A stretch of DNA of 64,000 nt, from the NCBI GenBank assembly GCA_022496805.1, contig CM040106.1:6014001-6078000 (forward strand), given 5' to 3'. The notes beneath the pieces are model-generated. The model had not been told where the DNA came from, searched no databases, and saw only the letters and a list, made by a program, of their open reading frames with translations. Source of the DNA: Pohlia nutans (Eukaryota; Streptophyta; Bryopsida; Bryales; Mniaceae). A program made the translations under genes and the position numbers. This document shows positions 40,029-51,499 of the stretch, one piece after another (positions within the stretch are counted from its first letter, which is position 1; each line of letters begins with the position of its first letter).

Positions 40029-40199
40029 GATCTTCTACCCGCGTCTCGTGGGGTCATCCGAGAAAAAAACCTGTTGACAATGTATGGGGAATGCAAACTA
40101 ATCTAGATGTACTCTGTGATCCATGTGGTTGAAATTTGCCACGCTGAATCCGTACTTGTCACGTTCTATGCTGGGAACTCGTAGGGAAATGCTATTACG

Positions 40200-40233
40200 T
40201 GAGCAGTGAGCAGTGAGCAGTGAGCAGTGAGCA
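40200..40233 (+). repeat. (GTGAGCA)n tandem run
   Basis: Five copies of the 7-bp unit gtgagca stand at the presumed left end of the 11-kb element. Degenerate units (gtgagcaatgagcggtga, read as complement) stand at the right end. Short subterminal tandem motifs are typical transposase-binding sites in plant DNA elements; that role is inferred. Confidence 0.7.
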
Positions 40234-42049
40234 AAAATTTTGGAAAAGATTTCGGGCTGTAAAGGACCTCCTATTACCGCGGATTTAGGGTGTATTTAGT
40301 GAATATTTCTGAAATGTTATTTTAGACAAAGGACCTATAGCCGTGGAATTTAGGCTGTATGTTTAGAGTTATTAGTGGAATTTATCAGCTCCAAACAACA
40401 ATAGCTCGTTTTTGAATCTTAAACAAATGCATTCAAACTCGTTACAGAATCAAGAAATGATGTGGAAATAAATAAATACTCAAACCGTACAATCAAAGTG
40501 AATCTGTATCAGATTCGATAGCACTCACATCAACATATGAGAGCACACGTGGATCATAATGTTGATGCGGTGTGGAAAAGCATGAAGAACTATTAGGACT
40601 AGCATTGGCAAATGCTGTTGCCAATGCTTCGGCGTACACTGGCAGTCCTTGAGGGGAACTATCAGGGCTGACCAAACTCTGCAAGGACTGTCTAAGGTTA
40701 GAACGGTGCCGCTGTAATGGTCTAGTCCTTGTCAAACTGCAAACAAGAGAAGTGTTAAAGTATTAGAAAACATATTCAGTTAAAGATGTACTAACTAGTA
40801 TTTGCAAGGTGCATTAAATAACCAATGAAACTTACTCACATGGACACTCAAGGGGCTCGTCGGGAACGGTCTCATCATCGGAATCAAGAAGGTTGATGTG
40901 AGCGGTGTCAGGTGGTGCTGTACGGGTCTGAGGAGCAACGAGGGGCTTCAAGCCCTCAGTAAATAGCTTTGAATCGCTTTCAAGAGCTACAATGTGACGG
41001 TTGCAAACCCGTGCTGCACGAATAGACGCACCTGCACAACAGAGCAGAAAAGGTTTATTAGAAATAGAGGGTTTAATGTCACGTGATATTAATTCTGCAA
41101 TTCAATGAAGGAGAATAAAATTACCTGTGGATGCCGTGAGGTCTGCTACGATACCTTTCTCTGGAGTTAGTCCATACACAAACAGTTTCATCAACACCTC
41201 TGATTTCTCTTTGAGACCACGCCATGGTCTTCCTGTGTCTTTCCTCAACTGCTGTGACTCAAGGTCACAACGTTGAAAAGAACGTCATCTCACGCTAGGT
41301 CAACCTGCGGAATAGACGGGTCTTTCACAATAACTAAAGGTGGGGGTTGCCTGGCCGTAGTAGAGGGAACATCACGGGCAAGAAGAACCGCCTTGAACTT
41401 CAACATCAGGAATTTCAGACCCCACTGATTCTGCACGATTTCAGTGCATTTATCGTTAAACACTGATTTCACACGTCATACGTGCATTTAGAAGTGTCGT
41501 TATCGTACGGAAGTGACATGCATTACTAAGATGTCGATGCAGTGTCTTTTCAATGATTATGACAAAAGTGTTGTTTCCGCACGAAAGTCGTGCTTGACGG
41601 AATCCGTGCGTTAATCGTGTATCTACATTACTTGGCTAATAAGACACGGATAACATGCGGTTTTAGTTAATGCGGATTCAGTATCGTATACGTATCATAT
41701 TAATGCCATTTACTATATTCGTGCGATTTCAGTATCTATTATAATGCAAATTATTTTCGTACGACATCCGTGTATAATATTTTAATATATTTTTTGGAAT
41801 CTTTTGGAATCTTTTAGAATATTTTGGAATCTTTCAAAATATTTTATATTATTTTGGAATATGTTGGAATATTCCAAGAATCTTCTTTAAATTATACTTA
41901 CGGTTTAATTTCCCAAAACATTTTTAGATCTACATTTATAGAGTTTAGAAGCAATACACATTTTAATTTCAAAGAAATAACATTTTATATTTTTAGAATT
42001 CAAATTTGGTATTATTGGTTATCATTGTACTTTTCATCATAGGAGCAAA

Positions 42050-42540
42050 AAAAAATAGCTCACAACCACCACGATTTTGGAAAAAAATAAAAAAATTCAA
42101 AATATTATGAAAAAAAATCCTAAATATAGAAAAAGTCCTGCATAATCTAATGCAAAAAATAATTTGGAAAAAAAGTTTTTTTCACATAGTTAAAAACATT
42201 CAAAGTCCGCTGAAAAAAAAAAACAGCTCACAGCCATGATCTGCCTTCACTATTTTGGCAAAAAATAAAAAAATTCAAAAAATAATGAAAAAAATCCTAT
42301 ATATAGAAAAAGTCCTGCATAATCTATTGGAAAAAAAGTTTTTTTCACATAGTTAAAATCATTCAAAGTCCGCTGAAAAAAAAACAGCTCTCAACCATGA
42401 TCTGCCATCACAATTTTGGCCAAAAAAAAAAAAACTTAAAATATTCTGAAAAAATTTGTAGATGTAGGAAAAGCCCTGCATGTTGTAGTGCAAAAAAAAA
42501 ATTTGAAAAAAAAATTATATACACATGGCAAAAAATTGCC
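42050..42540. repeat. Three tandem AT-rich units of about 160-167 bp
   Basis: Each unit starts near agctcacaaccac or agctcacagccatga and runs through A-rich tracts with aaaaagtcctgcataatcta. Copies start close to 42057, 42224 and 42384. The third is the most diverged. Confidence 0.75.
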
Positions 42541-42589
42541 AATGGTTTTAATCTTTTATAACTACCAAAAAAGTTCCATTCTATGCATC

Positions 42590-42740
42590 GAGAGTTCGTG
42601 GTGATTTGGTGGTTTGGAGCTTGGTTGACAATCGGGAGGTCGTGAGTTCGAATCCCGCCGTCGGCGATAGAGCTTGGGAAGCCATGGTGGGCCCCACCGT
42701 GGATTCGGGCAGTTTCCGTGTAGTTAAAGTGGGTAGCGAG
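42590..42740 (+). mobile_element. tRNA-derived SINE-like segment
   Basis: The phrase gtgagttcgaatcccgccg carries a clean RNA polymerase III B box (GTTCGAATC). A loose A-box-like tggtgatttggtgg lies about 40 bp upstream. The body continues gtggattcgggcagtttccg, and an AT-rich tail follows at 42745. The arrangement fits a tRNA-headed SINE better than a working tRNA gene. Confidence 0.45.
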
Positions 42741-45149
42741 GAAAGTAATTATTTAATATTATTTAATATTTTTTAATAATATTATTTTGATCAAATTTAG
42801 ATATAGAAAGAAAATAAAATCTAGATATGGAAAAGATGATGTCGCACGAAAAACGCACTGAATCAGTGTAGTTTTAAAGACGATTAAAACACGACACTTG
42901 ACGACCATAAAAAGTGCTGAATTCATACGTTTTCAATAGATGTATCAATAGTGTCGAATCAGTACTATATCCGCTTGTACGAACATCGTGTCATATCAGT
43001 GTAGTTGGGATGAATGACGCAACGATGCGGAATCAGTGCGAAAACTGTACGAACCTTTGAAATATCGGAAATCGCACTGAAATCGTGCAGAATCAGTGGG
43101 GTCTGAAATTCCTGATGAAAGTCTAAAAGAAAACAATGAATATTAATACATAGAAGGTCGTATTACAAAACATGTCCTAAAAACTCAATTTGAAGAAAGT
43201 TTAAAAAGTTAGAGGAGCTCACATTTTTGGAGGATGGAGCGGGTTCGCTAGATGGAGGTAGTTGATGATAGTCCACTCATCAACTACTTTCATCTTATAG
43301 AGTTTAAAATAGGACATTACTTCTTTTTTGACAATGGGACTGTCGGGGTAAAAAAAGGAGAAATGCACCATCGTCATGGAGATATGCATACGCAAACCCC
43401 ATGGTCACCTTCAGAAAACCGTCAAGACTCTCATTCCAATTAGGAACTTGAGATGGAGGGTCTGAAACATCGGGGCCCCTCAACCCGTCTGGATACTTTG
43501 CAATAAGTAGATCAACCCCCGGTTTCTCTACAGCCTTACCGTCAAAGAATAGTTATCTAGAGGCACCAACCTATGTCTCAATGAAGAAACATAGAGAATT
43601 AAATATTAATTGAGAATCAAACTACAATACACAAACTAATAACAATTGGCAAACAAGAGAACAAATAAAATAGAAGTAGTATTCACCTTCTTCAAAAACT
43701 CCACGATCTCATTATACTCTGGGCATAATTGACCGGTTTCTTCTTCTCATCTGCCATTCGTAAGAAAGAGTCGTTGACAAGAAGGTCAAGAGAAGTGTAC
43801 TCTGAAACACTAACACCAGGCTTGCTCAACATGGGTGCTCGTTTCGAGGGAGAAAGGAACACCGTTGGAGTAGAAGGGCCTGTAGTGTACAACTTCACCC
43901 TCTTCGCTGTAGGCTCCAATGCTGACATAGCAGGGGTCTTCACCGATGGTGGTCAACTCTGCGCTGGTGGTAGTGCTGCGCTATTGGCCACAGTGGAAGT
44001 AGATGGAACTGTAGCCGCTGGTGCAGAGGTCTCAATAACGTTAGCCTTCCATTTTGAACCACGCTTGGATGTCGTGGTTGCCTTCTGTGTCGAAGCAGCT
44101 TCCTTCTCGGGCGTAGCTGTGTCCTTCTGTGTACCTGTTCCAATCAGACTAGGCTCGAGAGAGTCTCGTAGAGCAATGTCAAATGAAGGAGGCTTGGTAA
44201 CTGGGCAATCTAAGTACCACCCACAGCGGTCCAAGTGCACACTATCCCACTGCTTCATAATCCCTTTTGTAAGCATGAACTCATCACTTTCCTGATCAAG
44301 ATAGTTTACAAAGAATGGAGGGGATCTAGACATGGCCTTTGCTAAAAATAAAATATACTTGAAATATCGGTACAAGACACGGTGCAATGCAGGTTTGAAC
44401 AAATATTTCTTATCAATCTAAAAGTTCTTGTGGATGCCTTTATCAACAGCAAATTCTCTGAAGAATGCAGTGTCCCAGAGTGAAATCCGCGTTTGCTCAA
44501 TGTAATCAAAGATGGTGGGTGTTGGGTTACTACCGTCTGGGTGGTAATTGATGATGACCTTTTGATCTCGAACAATGCACTCAAAAATGATCCCAGCTTC
44601 CACGGTCAACTGCAGAAAATTCAACATTTGAGAAAGATGTAATGAAATGATAACAATGTGTTATAAAAAATCCAATGTGAAATTCTGGGAGCATTGATAA
44701 AAAGAAATTAGTAGAAAAAACTTCGAATGTACCTGGGACCACCAAGTAGCTGTGTGAAGCCAAACCAAGAAGATGTCATAATTAAAGCTAGGTTTTGGAA
44801 ATCTGAGTTGCACTCGAAGATTTGCAGGTTGATTCCAACATTCAAGCCAAAGAACCTTCATTGAAGGATTCATAGCACTGGTGCAAAGCATCCAAAGCTT
44901 CTCAAGCTTCATCTTTGGTTCTTCATCATGAGACTCATAGTGAGATTTCAGTTCCTCGAGAAAAGCCGTAATGTTGCTGGGATCAGCAACAGGCAACATC
45001 TTCTTCATCTCACCCTTGTAATGAACCTTGGTTTTCTTCACAGCGTTGTGCACTAGTTCCTCAAGTCTCTTAGCAGTCCAATCTTCAAAATTAGGATATT
45101 TCTCATAAAATCTCCTCTGAGCAACGATAGCAACTTCTCCAATCTCTTG

Positions 45150-45520
45150 CTGCAATAGGAAGACAAAACAATTTAAAAGACTTTATGAAAGAATTAATTA
45201 CCAACATTATACACAAAATTCAGCAGTTAAGGGATGGTTATACCTGATTGAGAAGACCACTGAGAGAGTCAATAGTCAATTAATACCACGTCTGGGTCTT
45301 GGCACCTTTCCACTTAATCTTTGAGAGTTGAAGGTCCTCAGGTGACACCAATGATTGAAAATATGAGAGAGGTTGGGCACCAATGTATAATTAATATGAG
45401 AGAGGTTGGGCACAGGTAATTATATTGATCATGTACACGTTCTTTTATTTGAATATACATTGCTTCTGATGAGTATCTTCTTACCATTTCCAAAATGTAT
45501 CTTTGTAGGTCGACCGAACA
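45150..45520. promoter_or_regulatory. Region between the divergent methyltransferase-like genes
   Basis: About 370 bp separate the first recognisable exons of the minus and plus copies. The phrase atatgagagaggttgggcac occurs twice, at about 45360 and 45392, as a short direct repeat. By position it should hold a shared bidirectional promoter, or missing first exons. No TATA box is convincing. Confidence 0.3.
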
Positions 45521-45529
45521 TTCGCACGT

Positions 45530-48500
45530 GAAAACCAATATGATTCACATGTTGCACCAAATAAATAGTTTTGGGCAACTTCCCCTCACTGATTTCAAAT
45601 TCCTCCTCACTCCGGACGAGTACAAACGGTGCGAGAACTGGAAGCCCCCGTTCTCATGGCATCCACTTATGAAGGAGGTCTTCATCACGTTCTTCTATAG
45701 GGTATGAATTCTCAACCTCCCAAGAAGACTTCATCCTAAACTAATTGGATAGGTGGAGTCCCAAGATGATAAGTTGAGTGCATGAAGGCTACTGAATCTT
45801 AATATGGACTTGCAAAGACACTAAATAGACAAGAAATCTCCATAGCACTGACCCTCCAATATTTGCATGCCGTTTCAAGTATCACACAATCTAGTAATCT
45901 CGATCCCCATTAGACTTTGCCACAGTAGCCCTGATACAACTAGCTCTTGCCTCTTACATTAAATGCAGGAATGACGTCATCGTAACTTCAAAGACTATCT
46001 AAATACTCAAGGTACACATGTAATTAGAATATGATACGCATGTACTAAAAATAGATGTACTGTTGCATTAATTAACTGCTCACTCAAAAGGAATCAGTGA
46101 CAAGCTCATATTCATTATTTCGGTCAATTCATGTGACTTGTTACAGTAGATAATAACAAGGATTGGGCGATTGTCTAATGTAACCAATATGGGGTTCCAT
46201 GCATAATGTGGTTATGGACAAGGTCCTAATTAATTAATATTGAATTCGGTTATTAGAAATCGAAACAAACAAACAAAGAAACCATCATCACTGTAAACTA
46301 AGAGAAGCTTCATCAGTTGTATGAAAGACCATCAACATTGATTTCACAAGATAAAGAAAGTACCAATATAAGCAGGCATTGTTAGTGCTTATTGAATAGT
46401 TGATATTACTGGAATTTGAGATCGCACACCCGGACTGTGTTCTAATATCTTTCTTCGTCTTCACTGCAACACGACATTGCAACTACCTCCGATGAGGCAT
46501 GACGTTTGTATTACGAGAAAACACCACCTGAAAATCGCTCTGCTAAAGAGTTGAGGGACACTATGACCCAGGCTTCAAAGACAGCAATCAAAGAGAAAAA
46601 AACCGAGTACGACAAGGTGTTGTCCATTGCAAATCCAAAGCACAGCCCGCAGTTCTTAGCAGAGGTACTACTCCAAATTCAATTTTCCTTCAATCTCTTT
46701 GTTTAGCAATTATACTCCTTTCCTATTGTTGTATTTCTAATTCATTTTATGCTTGACGCAAATAAAACACACTGGAGCGCTAAAGAAAAGCCGGAAATGA
46801 CACTTGATAAGCTTCAGAGGATCTCTACCATTGTAGTGCAGCCCCAATTCTTTGTCCGCTGGTTGAAGTGGTGGAACTCGTCGGATATTTCCCGAGAGGC
46901 TCTTCACTTCCTATTTCAACGTTTCACAGATGCAACTTTAGAGAGTTAGTTGGCTCGGGCGGCATTTTGGGCAGAGGTCAATCTCTTACTACATTGTATC
47001 GTTGCAATATGTCCTTCAAAACTATATCTGAGCTACTTTGGAAACTGATCGCTTTATGCTAGTAATTTAAAACATACCTTTGAGTGCTTTTTCTTGGGTC
47101 ACGGTTGTACAGCTTGAGGACTCTGTTGCGGCTGAGGTCATAAACGCCCTTCACACTGACGGCATCCAGATTGATTGGGAAGCCCGTCCTGGCTTGGATG
47201 AAATCAACCAACACGTTGAAAAATAGAGAATCCTTGTCTGGGTCGAGCATTCTACTTTATACTCAAGAATTCCAATGGCTACTCTAGAATAATTGCCTTC
47301 AAAGACCAAGACGGGACCTCATATGCCTTCAAACGACTCCTGTAGAGGTTTGCAATCTACAAATGCCTTCACATTTCACAAATTCAGTTCACTCTACAAT
47401 TGCACTACTCTACCTATGTATTAAAACATTTTGCTTCTGAACTTCCAGGTACTTCAAACGCAAACTCCTTGGTAAGGGTGCAATTGATTGAAAGGCTATG
47501 CCCAAATTTTTTGGTGCATGGTTTGACAAAACAATGCCATCATGCGTTTTCACACCAAATCAGCTACGTCTGTTTAAGCTTCCTGAGCTTCTAGCCTCGC
47601 CTTGGTACCTAGAATGCGCGAAGAATTACTCGGTAGCCAAGGAGGAGGAAGAGAAACGTGCAGCAACCCCCGCCTCGGTAGAGGAAACTGAAGATGTTGA
47701 AGACGATGCCGTTGTTGAGGTTCCTGCTCCAACCACTGCAGAAAATAAACGAGGTAAGGGCAAGGCATCCAAGTCTCCAGCCGGTGCCGGTACTTTGAAG
47801 AGGACCAAGGCAAAATCTGTGGATGCAGTTGCTGTTGCACTTCCTGTTGCAGTTGCTTCAGTATAGATACCTTCGACACAGGTACCTTCTTTGAATTTTT
47901 TGCATTCCCAGGTTGTTGCTTTGAGTTCCCTTGGCGCTTGCAACCACAACATCCACTCTCAAGCTCTAGTTTTCAACGAATCCCTCATATCCCTTGTGGA
48001 GATGAAGCTCAAGAGCGACTAGACACTAGCTCCGTGGACTCAAATTCTGGAGTTTTCTAAGAAGGTACTTTTTAGAATGTTGTATTCAAATGTTTTAATT
48101 GCTTCTTCTTATATTCAGAATGTTTGCACTGTATTGTTTGTAACTTTGAATAGCTCGGTTTTAATTGCTTGCAGGTGGGGAATCAAAATCTCGCAAGTTA
48201 GGGGACGTGGTGAATCCCGATGCAAGTTTAGATATGCTCATTGCAGATATTCCGGAAAACCTTCCGGTCCTTGGCATTTCTAAGAGCATCTCCACCCCTA
48301 CTCCAAATCAAGGGCCGCGATCCCATATGGCGCGCCCGGGCTCCTCAACGTCCCCCACTGGGACTCGTGATTTAGTCGGTGGCTGAGCGGCCTCGCCATA
48401 CTTCGTACTCCAATCGCCATCGTTTAGAGTCTGAGGTGTTCTATAGCGCACCCCTTCTGCGGGAAATATTTGAAAATTTTGTCGGCAACTGCTTCAGACA

Positions 48501-50070
48501 CTTGGACTCTGACATGTTTGATTTAAATTGAGAAGGGCAAGTATGGTATGCCAACGTGGGCAGCATGAGCTGGAGGTTCTTCACTCATCAGCTCGCCCAC
48601 CTGGAGCTGCGGCCAAAAGGAGATTTACATACCCTAAAAATAACCCTGGTCAAACGCCGATTCCCCCCAATTCCGCAGCTGACAGGTCCCCGACAGTGCA
48701 AACCGTGTGGCCCGGTGAGGCTTGCTTTCTTTGGCGAGTCATTATTGATGTGTGGGGCCCTCCAAACCTTGTTTGGCAAACCAACAATTTGGAGTAGGGG
48801 TGGAGATGCTCTAATCCCTCCACTATAGTTCCCGACTGGAACAAGATCGATGTTGACGATTTTGTGGAGATCTTGTTTGCCTATGCTGTTCAACACTTAT
48901 CTGATGATGGAGCTCTCTTAATGTTCCTTCTTGAGAGTCCATCTATACGCAAAGATGTGCTTGGTTGGGCTACTACATATGGTTACATGATGTACAAGGA
49001 TTGGTGGGGCATTAACGAGCTTTGGTTGACATCCTTTAGAGATCCTGCATGCATGGTAATGACTTTGTCTCCTCTCCTACATCCTTTTGCGTTATTCATT
49101 AATTGATTTTCACCCATCATGATTTGTTGTATCATTTTAACGATTCCATTTAAACTTTGCTAATGCAGACACGACGCTTTTGGGTACTGCAATTTTTCCG
49201 AGAGAGCATCAAAGACACTGTAGTTTAGTTCATATTTGTCCTGTGAATCATTCGTGAAGTGCAGGACGCTGGAATTGATTTAGAAGCTGATAATCTCTTA
49301 CACAATTTCACTACTTCCAAAAGCCAATTGGTGAATGGGAGTATTCCTTGGAGGGGTGCTCGAGCAAAGGATCCCCAATTTTTGCAAGTCCTCATCGAAG
49401 CTTCCTCTAACTTTGGAGATGTAGTATTGGATTACAATGCCTCTACTGGTGAGTTTACACTAGACATGATTTAATTCTGGCATCACTTGTACTACATCGA
49501 GTCAATCTTAATTACTATGTGTTGGATCTGCTTTGCAGGAGCCTCCATTCATGCTTGTCGCTCGACTGGACGCCATATCATTGCCCTGGAGTCTGACTCT
49601 GGTATCTTCAAAGGAGTGCTTTAGACATTGATAGACCCTAAGATTTTCTCGTCTCCATCTAACATGAAGAGGGCACCTCCCCTTCCCATTGATGACGACG
49701 ATGACCCCGTCGTGAAGGTCAAACGGCCGAGATTATGTAAGTAAGTTTAACTCAATTCTTGCTTCATTTACTTCAATACTATCTTTTGTCTTCTACCATC
49801 TCTTTACCAATAATTACAGAACGCTATTTCCAATTTCTGATGCACTACTTCCTCCAATTATGCAGAGGTACAAGGGTCCGTGGTATTCAAGGTCTACAAG
49901 AGGATATCAAAAGTCCCGATCATTCATTTGATCTACCTTGCTATAAACAGCCATTAGCTCATGCCTTTGTAGAAGAACCTCCCAAATGCTCTAGTCTCGG
50001 GGAGGTCACTCCCTTGTATATTTTGTATACACGTGCAATAATGACCTATTTATTTGGGGGGTTATTTTAG
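45530..50070 (+). pseudogene. N6/N4 DNA methyltransferase-like gene, interrupted (plus copy)
   Basis: The segments parallel the minus copy: 45570-45700 (FKFLLTPDEYKRCENWKPPF), 46506-46665 (YYEKTPPENRSAKELRDTMT), 46755-46945 (KWWNSSDISREALHFLFQRF), 47095-47230 (VVQLEDSVAAEVINALHTDG), 47498-47866 (FFGAWFDKTMPSCVFTPNQL, then a Lys/Pro/Ala linker), 47912-48063, 48175-48280 joined across an inserted element to 48812-49056, 49263-49449, and 49539-49740. The catalytic half reads SLDMLIADIPENLPVLGIS (the position of a DPPY motif, here DIPE), LSDDGALLMFL, IPWRGARAKDPQFLQVLIEA, GDVVLDYNASTG and GRHIIALESDSGIF. This is the permuted (beta-class) order of PF01555 methylases. Stops at 48020-48022 and after FKGVL, plus the insertion, disable it. 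The altered motif IV suggests the family may lack, or have changed, activity. Confidence 0.7.
48284..48811. mobile_element. PIF/Harbinger-like miniature element (TAA target site)
   Basis: Inverted ends GAGCATCTCCACCCCTACTC and its complement stand at 48284 and 48811, with a TAA duplication at 48281-48283 and 48812-48814. A three-base TAA/TTA target site with GAGCATCTCC-type ends fits PIF/Harbinger-derived miniature elements. The 528-bp copy is non-autonomous. It lies within an exon of the methyltransferase-like gene. Confidence 0.85.
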
Positions 50071-51279
50071 CAAAAAAATTTAGCAAAAAATATTATTAGG
50101 TGATGGTATTTTACATATAAAAAGCCTGAGAATATTATATGTGATGGTATTTTACATTTAAACATGTTTCACTTTTTTAAAATCCCCTATTTTACATGTA
50201 CATTTTTTACAAAATTTATTTACAATGAATATATTGGACCCTATTTTTTATCGCACGTTGTTTCTAAAATTTTCGCCAGTGAACCCCCCGAGGCTCTAGT
50301 ATACAATCAAATTCAAAGAGACTTGGATTTGGAGTGCATAGGTTCTTAGATTTGGATGCAAAGGTTGGTTTCTCTTCCAGTAATTCTTCTAGTTCTAGCG
50401 ACTCCTTGGATTACAGTTGACTAAGATGTGATTCATTGATTCATTGCCATCGCAATTGTCATGTGAGGGTCTAAGATGTGAAGTATCTAGAAAGTGAATT
50501 CACAATATCTAACTTCTAACTCAGTTCCCCCCCGCCCAGCTTGTTGAAACGAGTCGAAAAGAAGAGTAAATAAACCACAACAACATTGGATGATGAATAG
50601 GGGATTTGCACTAGGAACCAGAATAACAACAACTGCTTGCTAGGAGAATGTTGCTTAGAATGACATTTCTATTGAATACAACAAAATGACAATTACATTG
50701 CAGACTTGTTAATTACTTAGTGATATTGTTAATTACTTAGTAATAATCTCTTCACTGTTTTTAGTGTAGAGATTACCATAAAAAAAAATTACCCTAATCT
50801 TACAATATTAAGTTCTATTTCTAATGATTTAAAAAACCACAACACTTTTTGAAGTCTTTTTTGAAAGGTTGTTTTTTGAACCAAAAAATTAGTCTTGGAT
50901 GTTGTACTATTTTGAACTATATATTAATATTTTGGAGATTTTTATTTTAAATGTATACCTTACAAGTTAGAAATCCAATACAAGACTTTACAAAATTTGA
51001 CACAAATTAATCAAAATTTTAACGTGGACATACAAAACCCATTTTTTCTTTGTTGTGTTTAGTTTCCTATGTACCTGACATTAGCATTCAATGTAGTCAT
51101 TAAACCACCTAATTGGAATGTACCTCTCGGGTGGGACCCCCACCAAAAAAATACCCTATAGCCAGAGAAATAGGGTCTTCTTTGTTAATTGAGTCGGAAT
51201 TTTTTTCCAAAATTCATCTTTGAACAGCGGTTATAGGGCCTGTTTTACTGAACATGATCTTTAAAAATACTATGAAGTT
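50071..51279. other. AT-rich tail of the 11-kb region
   Basis: A phrase tgatggtattttaca repeats at about 50101 and 50144. The segment NQIQRDLDLECIGS just before 50349 could be the very end of the plus-strand gene. The rest is AT-rich without coding signs. Confidence 0.35.
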
Positions 51280-51499
51280 ACCGCTCACTGGTCACCGCTC
51301 ATTGCTCACAGAATAGCATTCCTGGTTAACAAAGCAACATTGAAAATTCCAACCGTGTATGATGAGGTAAACCCCACCTCCACATGCAGTGCGCTCTGCA
51401 CATAAACATCAATGATATCACTGTCTTTTTGCCAGTGGGGATGCTTCACGTCACACGCATCGTTCAGACGTTGAAACACCTATATATGTGAGGGCAATA

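Follow-up and report, generated by a model that had tools for sequence, protein, structure and literature searches.

A predicted Mutator-type transposon family with a methylase-like accessory gene in the moss Pohlia nutans

The DNA analysed here (the window) is a stretch of 64,000 nucleotides from the moss Pohlia nutans (GenBank assembly GCA_022496805.1, contig CM040106.1, positions 6,014,001 to 6,078,000), in which the 11-kb segment at 40186-51330 carries, on opposite strands, two copies of one multi-exon gene ending in a DNA methylase-like domain. The segment is best read as two 5'-truncated accessory genes, from two subfamilies of one family of Mutator-like elements (MULEs), fused head to head. 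Complete members are ~12-15 kb transposons that end in (GTGAGCR)n, are flanked by 10-bp target duplications and hold a transposase gene and a divergent accessory gene, an anatomy in which confidence is high. The overall explanation favoured, with belief somewhat exceeding doubt, is that the window holds a fossil of a MULE family whose accessory protein may mark its own element. A preliminary description had proposed an 11-kb plant mobile element; a plant mobile-element family with GTGAGCA ends was indeed found, but the 11-kb segment could not be confirmed as one element.

Complete elements and their transposase

The genome searched comprises 697,796,988 bases in 332 contigs. All 150 of the scored genome places matched (150/150), with first-look candidates numbering 1472 for exon 8, 1444 for exon 1 and 1452 for exon 7 of the accessory gene, such that the copy number is at least 150 while ~1,450 refers to first-look candidates. 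The genome-wide collection of relatives that had been suggested yielded a large repeat family whose other copies keep GTGAGCA ends, and ordinary single-copy host genes are rejected on the strength of the at least 150 scored matches. The family contains several subfamilies; measured against a third representative, the spliced proteins of two others show 39% and 44% identity. At three exon-8 places on C4 (43375979, 43393444 and 43410909) the spacing is exactly 17,465 bp, perhaps reflecting a tandem array of a larger unit.

Both ends were located for four elements, C22, C18, C9 and C2. The C22 element (~14.6 kb) is flanked by an exact 10-bp target duplication, TGCCCTTGTG, while 10-bp duplications, likewise exact, were found for the C18 element (~19.3 kb; GAGGCTGACC) and the C9 element (~8.5 kb; CTAGGAGCTC). 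The duplication of the C2 element (~12.4 kb) reads GCACATAGAG versus GCACACAGAG, agreeing at 9/10 bases when aligned by eye. The script used to detect duplications returned longer exact matches for C18 (12) and C9 (14), where adjacent bases agree, and none for C2 owing to the mismatch. The element ends are related but imperfect inverted repeats: at the left end (GTGAGCR)n follows either GGACGAAGC or CAACGACGC, at the right end CAGGAATGC. The right ends of seven other copies are similar to the right border of the 11-kb segment up to ..GCTCAC..CAGCATTCC (CAACATTCC in L010, TAGCATTCC in the window), a comparison that omits L002, which is cut inside the element. Beyond these right ends the flanks diverge, save for one flank common to three copies (L014:1-961, L013:1-204 and L022:1860-2856). 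This common flank, which starts close to the right end of the three elements, is similar to a second family's transposase gene, with 43-48% identity over its main piece.

The gene opposite the methylase-like gene is a Mutator-like transposase in all four of the two-ended elements (4/4), and the earlier idea that a divergent pair of methylase genes is the design of the element was not upheld. Genome-wide, a divergent transposase was the nearest upstream neighbour within 16 kb at no fewer than 37 of the best 150 exon-1 places (median distance 7.5 kb), with a same-orientation transposase neighbour at one of these 150; random placement gave a mean of 0.35 and a maximum of 2 in 500 trials. The figure of 37 is a lower bound, since both lists (exon 1 and transposase) hold the 150 best places per query. 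The pairing is kept across subfamilies, in which the transposases are 49-72% identical and the accessory proteins 39% and 44% identical to the reference copy.

The transposase is of the DDE type with C-x2-H and a GCM/WRKY-like N-terminal part, and its predicted fold is that of a DDE transposase of RNase H fold in the MULE/IS256 branch. A SWIM-like zinc motif, C-x-C..C-x-H, was recognised by eye (ACTCPNFKEMATKALGKRG..NCKH in C22, with similar motifs in the C9 and C2 copies). The structural match to ISCth4, which we take to be a member of the IS256 family, comes from a second look with VIA-align at the list returned by Foldseek. Taking the 10-bp duplications and inverted ends together with the transposase and its predicted structure, the family is classed as a Mutator/IS256-type transposon. 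In public contigs 323 matches to the transposase family were found, and none of the 120 listed has a precomputed Pfam domain.

Several observations count against this account of the elements and their transposase. The C18 element has a 5.5-kb insert within its transposase gene, and the C9 element shows accessory-gene matches to exons 5-8 only. The flank of C9 holds a 23-bp tandem repeat containing the duplicated bases, for which reason the C9 duplication is weak evidence, and confidence in the anatomy was lowered slightly on account of these repeated flanks and of the several exons missing from C9. For 113 of the best 150 exon-1 places no divergent transposase was present among the listed places. 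In Pfam no relevant MULE or other family matched the transposase, and Foldseek by itself gave no match at E <= 0.001, the best being ISCth4 at 1.3e-3.

The accessory protein, its altered motifs and its possible role

The accessory gene has at least nine coding exons followed by a C-terminal tail exon, with splice sites assigned by eye, and all nine exons are free of stops in the first L021 copy and in the L025 copy. Exon 1 encodes IPLCRM..VRP..DGNHR..AW, in which a DGxHR-type motif follows a hydrophobic strand, reading DGNHR in 19/24 exon-1 sequences, DGNHS in one and NDNHR in one, with three pieces being without the motif. This pattern presumably resembles that of ParB/Srx-fold proteins, and from its sequence the N-terminal region is probably ParB-like. 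In the PDB the top chain for this exon was a molybdopterin synthase (E 0.12), set aside as a chance hit. Exons 2-6, forming the middle region, gave no significant match in profile searches.

Exons 7-9 encode the methylase domain. PF01555 scored 40.7 bits in the relative L027, whose methylase exons are open, versus a cut-off of 26.7, and 27.3 with a typed consensus; the plus-strand copy in the window (24.3 bits, E 3.5e-5) and the L021 full protein (16.4) scored below the cut-off. The domain also matches DpnA (E 1.7e-4), CcrM (E 2.2e-3) and phage methylases (down to E 2e-5), none of the latter reaching 80% query coverage. CcrM aligned over 530-748 in the permuted order, with motif IV before motifs X and I, and two phage enzymes agree. 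In keeping with the methylase-like C terminus first reported, the domain is very probably a methylase-derived fold of the permuted N6/N4 type, as judged by profile and sequence. As far as these searches go, neither of the outcomes that would have overturned the preliminary description was encountered. The full-length accessory protein had no match in the protein collection, where candidates needed at least 0.55 of the query length and gene calls may split multi-exon genes, so that the negative does not speak for absence; viral contigs likewise gave no match.

The catalytic motifs are altered in the copies compared. Motif IV reads D-[IVM]-P-[DEN] in 18/21 distinct copies, DVLD in two and KYPD in one, with DPPY in none, a count that leaves out two pieces not reaching the motif; the catalytic form [DSN]-P-P-[YFW] is found in 0/21. 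In an alignment that includes two phage enzymes, with DLPY and DPPY at this motif, the moss sequences show D-[IVM]-P-[DE]-N. The residues originally reported, VLDYNASTG and VADLTASTG at motif I and, for the plus copy, DIPE at motif IV, were confirmed, and the remark that both copies share ASTG proved right, with motif IV altered too. Other positions are retained, namely Asp 1 (20/21) and Pro 3 (19/21) of motif IV and the last Gly of motif I in 23/25 exon-8 sequences, of the remainder one ending in Ser and one being a piece cut short. With D-[IVM]-P-[DEN] at motif IV in 18/21 copies and DPPY in none, catalysis is uncertain, and that the protein is still a methyltransferase is plausible while falling a little short of an even bet.

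Selection on the domain was assessed by the ratio of nonsynonymous to synonymous substitution rates (dN/dS), using 20-22 sequences per exon in non-independent pairs from which saturated pairs drop out; the set includes L027 twice in exon 1 (also as L037) and one overlapping duplicate in exon 9. For exons 7, 8 and 9 the pooled dN/dS was 0.15-0.34, 0.16-0.26 and 0.07-0.28 at dS 0.3-2.5, and 0.39, 0.35 and 0.60 at dS 0.1-0.3, respectively. The low pooled values for exons 7-9 indicate that the accessory protein has been maintained. Given that the gene travels with the transposase and has been kept by selection, it probably serves the element.

The DNA between the two genes differs from element to element. 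C22 has a tandem array of 115 bp x 9.4, C2 an array with a 22-bp unit and C9 one of ~20 bp x 8. The hexamer ACTCGT occurs in the intergenic DNA of C22, C2 and C9 at 1.8, 2.9 and 8.0 per kb versus 0.2, 0.2 and 0.4 in the rest of these elements, and upstream of exon 1 at 5.3 per kb in L018 but at low density in L011 (0.7), L025 (0.6), L026 (0.4) and L027 (0). This density is a lead only, because the hexamer sits inside the repeated units. Upstream of exon 1, L018 (1569-3833) holds nested tandem repeats that extend over more than 2 kb (GCGTGACGAG.., GTGGTGCG..).

The element-specific arrays between the genes are the reason for favouring a protein that would bind and mark its own element. Past anatomy, homology and selection, we infer the steps as follows. 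The accessory protein would recognise the DNA of its own element, either at the end heptamers or at the subfamily-specific intergenic arrays, and would methylate or otherwise mark it, with this marking regulating transposition or shielding the element from silencing. Were catalysis lost, the protein could instead serve as an anti-silencing factor like VANC of Arabidopsis VANDAL elements. That it acts on the DNA of its own element at all is put at an even chance. The strongest version would be a moss Mutator-type transposon encoding a sequence-specific DNA-marking enzyme with the altered motif D-[IVM]-P-[DEN], possibly with new methylation chemistry, labelling heptamers and arrays so that host silencing fails; this is improbable. 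If it were true, the array and protein of each subfamily would be co-evolving pairs.

At the level of the protein a number of results speak against marking by a ParB-like methylase. Searches of Pfam, NCBIfam, PHROGs and PDB sequences found nothing significant for the ParB-like exon, its best matches being unrelated and at chance level (a PHROG at E 0.05, DDE_Tnp_4 at E 0.12, Med26_C at E 0.13). At position 4 of motif IV all copies (21/21) have an acidic residue or Asn, and motif I, D-x-x-A-[SM]-T-G (ASTG or AMTG), has its first Gly replaced by Ser or Met. Close copies gave dN/dS of 0.39-0.61, as expected with many dead copies.

The motif IV data bear most directly on a possible though unlikely alternative, in which the protein is methylase-derived and catalytically dead, having lost the motif IV aromatic residue, and like VANC binds noncoding tandem arrays and removes silencing. 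The 18/21 copies with D-[IVM]-P-[DEN] and none with DPPY favour it, as do the different intergenic arrays of C22, C2 and C9, the targets of VANC being fast-diverging tandem repeats (PMC10398659). Set against this, Asp 1 and Pro 3 of motif IV and the last Gly of motif I are retained under purifying selection, and position 2 of motif IV tolerates change, as seen from DLPY in a phage enzyme with a methylase annotation.

Methylation of RNA or protein instead of DNA, with the N-terminal region targeting the enzyme, is very unlikely. The loss of the motif IV aromatic could conceivably suit another acceptor, but DNA methylases account for the significant matches among profiles, PDB entries and phage proteins, and the gene travels with a transposon. 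MULEs capture host genes, and the accessory gene might by the same token be a captured host methylase gene carried in Pack-MULE style as a passenger, with no role for the element. This too has very little probability, marginally less again, given that the transposase pairing holds across subfamilies as divergent as those above and that the accessory gene is under purifying selection.

The fused remnant in the window

Exon-like matches to one multi-exon gene were found by tblastn on both strands of the window between 40.5 and 50.4 kb, in agreement with the gene layout originally noted. The borders of the segment (~40184-40233 and 51280-51324) are GTGAGCA-bearing inverted repeats, again as first noted, with 41-nt arms that are 85% complementary, and at 40199-40233 the heptamer is repeated five times in perfect tandem. 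GTGAGCA alone is mildly enriched, with 15 occurrences in the window versus 8.7 expected (15 was reached in 3/100 shuffles). By eye, both borders resemble right ends of family elements.

The minus-strand remnant has its right-type end at 40184..40233, consisting of GGGAAATGCTATTAC and the five GTGAGCA, as judged by eye against the right ends of the seven other copies. The C-terminal tail exon (LPVYAEALATAFA..SYVDVSAIESDTDSL; 40493..40745) was placed by eye, as were its counterparts in L025 and L021, while exon 9, after motif I (GASIRAARVCNRHIVALESDS; 40841..41032), was placed by tblastn. The end of exon 8, with PWRG..K and motif I VADLTASTG (41123..41260), is separated from exon 7 by a nested repeat of 1.7 kb (41404..43117), the 55-bp inverted ends of which are 91% complementary. 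Exon 7 (43225..43549) has KYPD at the motif IV position, exons 3 to 6 (43953..45149) hold in-frame stops, and a likely remnant of exon 2, placed approximately and by eye (45241..45345), is where this copy is cut off. At the junction of the two truncated copies (45346..45411) lie two direct repeats of 21 bp each (45360-45380 and 45393-45413).

On the plus strand the remnant of intron 1 with exon 2 (45412..45703) is followed by exons 3 to 6 (46515..47864) and by the first half of exon 7 (48177..48283), with DIPEN at the motif IV position. A 528-bp insert resembling a miniature inverted-repeat transposable element (48284..48811), flanked by TAA on either side, with inverted ends that pair perfectly over 26 bp (GAGCATCTCC..) and lacking from sister copies, precedes the second half of exon 7 (48812..49055). 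In exon 8 (49169..49450) two in-frame stops precede PWRGARAKD and the motif I sequence VLDYNASTG, and exon 9 (GASIHACRSTGRHIIALESDS; 49538..49700) has one stop, with further in-frame stops lying in exons 4, 5 and 6. The C-terminal tail exon (49871..50349) is interrupted by an insert at ~49997-50280, and the right end of the plus-strand element remnant (51280..51324), ending ..GCTCACAGAATAGCATTCCTG, resembles the ends of the seven other copies, with flanks differing beyond.

The plus copy is homologous to the L011 element from 45412 onwards, a point that in L011 is the end of exon 1, and the minus copy ends near 45345 in an apparent exon 2; with the two right-type borders, the segment is best read as a fusion of two truncated elements. 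Within the window tblastn found no match to accessory exon 1 for either gene at E 0.1, nor was the family transposase matched. The comparison of flanks for target-site duplications advised earlier gave 10 bp at the four two-ended relatives and none at the 11-kb segment, where the flanks tested had no common 5-mer or longer. Despite its inverted heptamer-bearing borders, 40186-51330 as a single mobile element built on a divergent methylase pair is rejected as the least probable explanation of all, there being no duplication found, two right-type ends, two 5'-truncated genes and a transposase as the divergent partner in all four two-ended elements.

Relation to known systems

The closest precedent is the Sola1 accessory gene of the brown alga Ectocarpus. 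Sola1-1_Ec32 carries an accessory gene encoding a ParB-like region and a DNA methyltransferase, and proteins of this kind are cited from green and red algae as well (PMC12477816). As described there, the algal and moss systems share one accessory gene on the strand opposite the transposase, a ParB-like region joined to an N4C/N6A-type methylase, a length of ~1,000 residues and a large DNA transposon. They differ in that the algal element is a Sola1 element whereas the moss family has a predicted Mutator-type transposase and 10-bp duplications, and the two are likened by description, not by sequence. In the limited collection of literature searched, no prior case of a ParB-like/methylase accessory gene in a land plant or a Mutator element was found.

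With MULEs and bacterial IS256 elements the moss family shares 10-bp duplications, inverted ends, the DDE type with C-x2-H, the SWIM-like motif, the GCM/WRKY-like N terminus and the structural match to ISCth4, but unlike them its transposase is without a Pfam match and it carries a large methylase-like accessory gene. VANDAL elements are MULEs and VANC is not known to be a methylase-like protein, unlike the accessory protein of the moss, the two again being likened by description and not by sequence. VANC is reported to be an anti-silencing protein targeting fast-diverging tandem repeats (PMC10398659). VANDAL and moss elements have in common an accessory gene and fast-changing tandem arrays in noncoding DNA.

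A selfish element with its own DNA methyltransferase is also seen in dinoflagellate and charophyte retrotransposons, which encode cytosine methyltransferases shown to carry out de novo CG methylation (PMC5890265). These are C5 enzymes in retrotransposons, whereas the moss domain is of the N6/N4 type in a DNA transposon. Bacterial-type amino-methylases in eukaryotes include the bdelloid N4CMT, which reads SPPY, and the Marchantia N4-methylcytosine methyltransferase, although the accessible part of the source describes both as recruited host genes, not transposon cargo (PMC8885841).

The moss family offers a changed catalytic motif under selection and two copies with nine stop-free exons. As mosses are tractable in the laboratory, a eukaryotic transposon that may write marks other than 5-methylcytosine on itself becomes testable. 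ParB-like/methylase accessory genes are known from algal transposons; what is new here is the occurrence in a land plant, in the Mutator superfamily, in at least 150 copies and with an altered motif IV.

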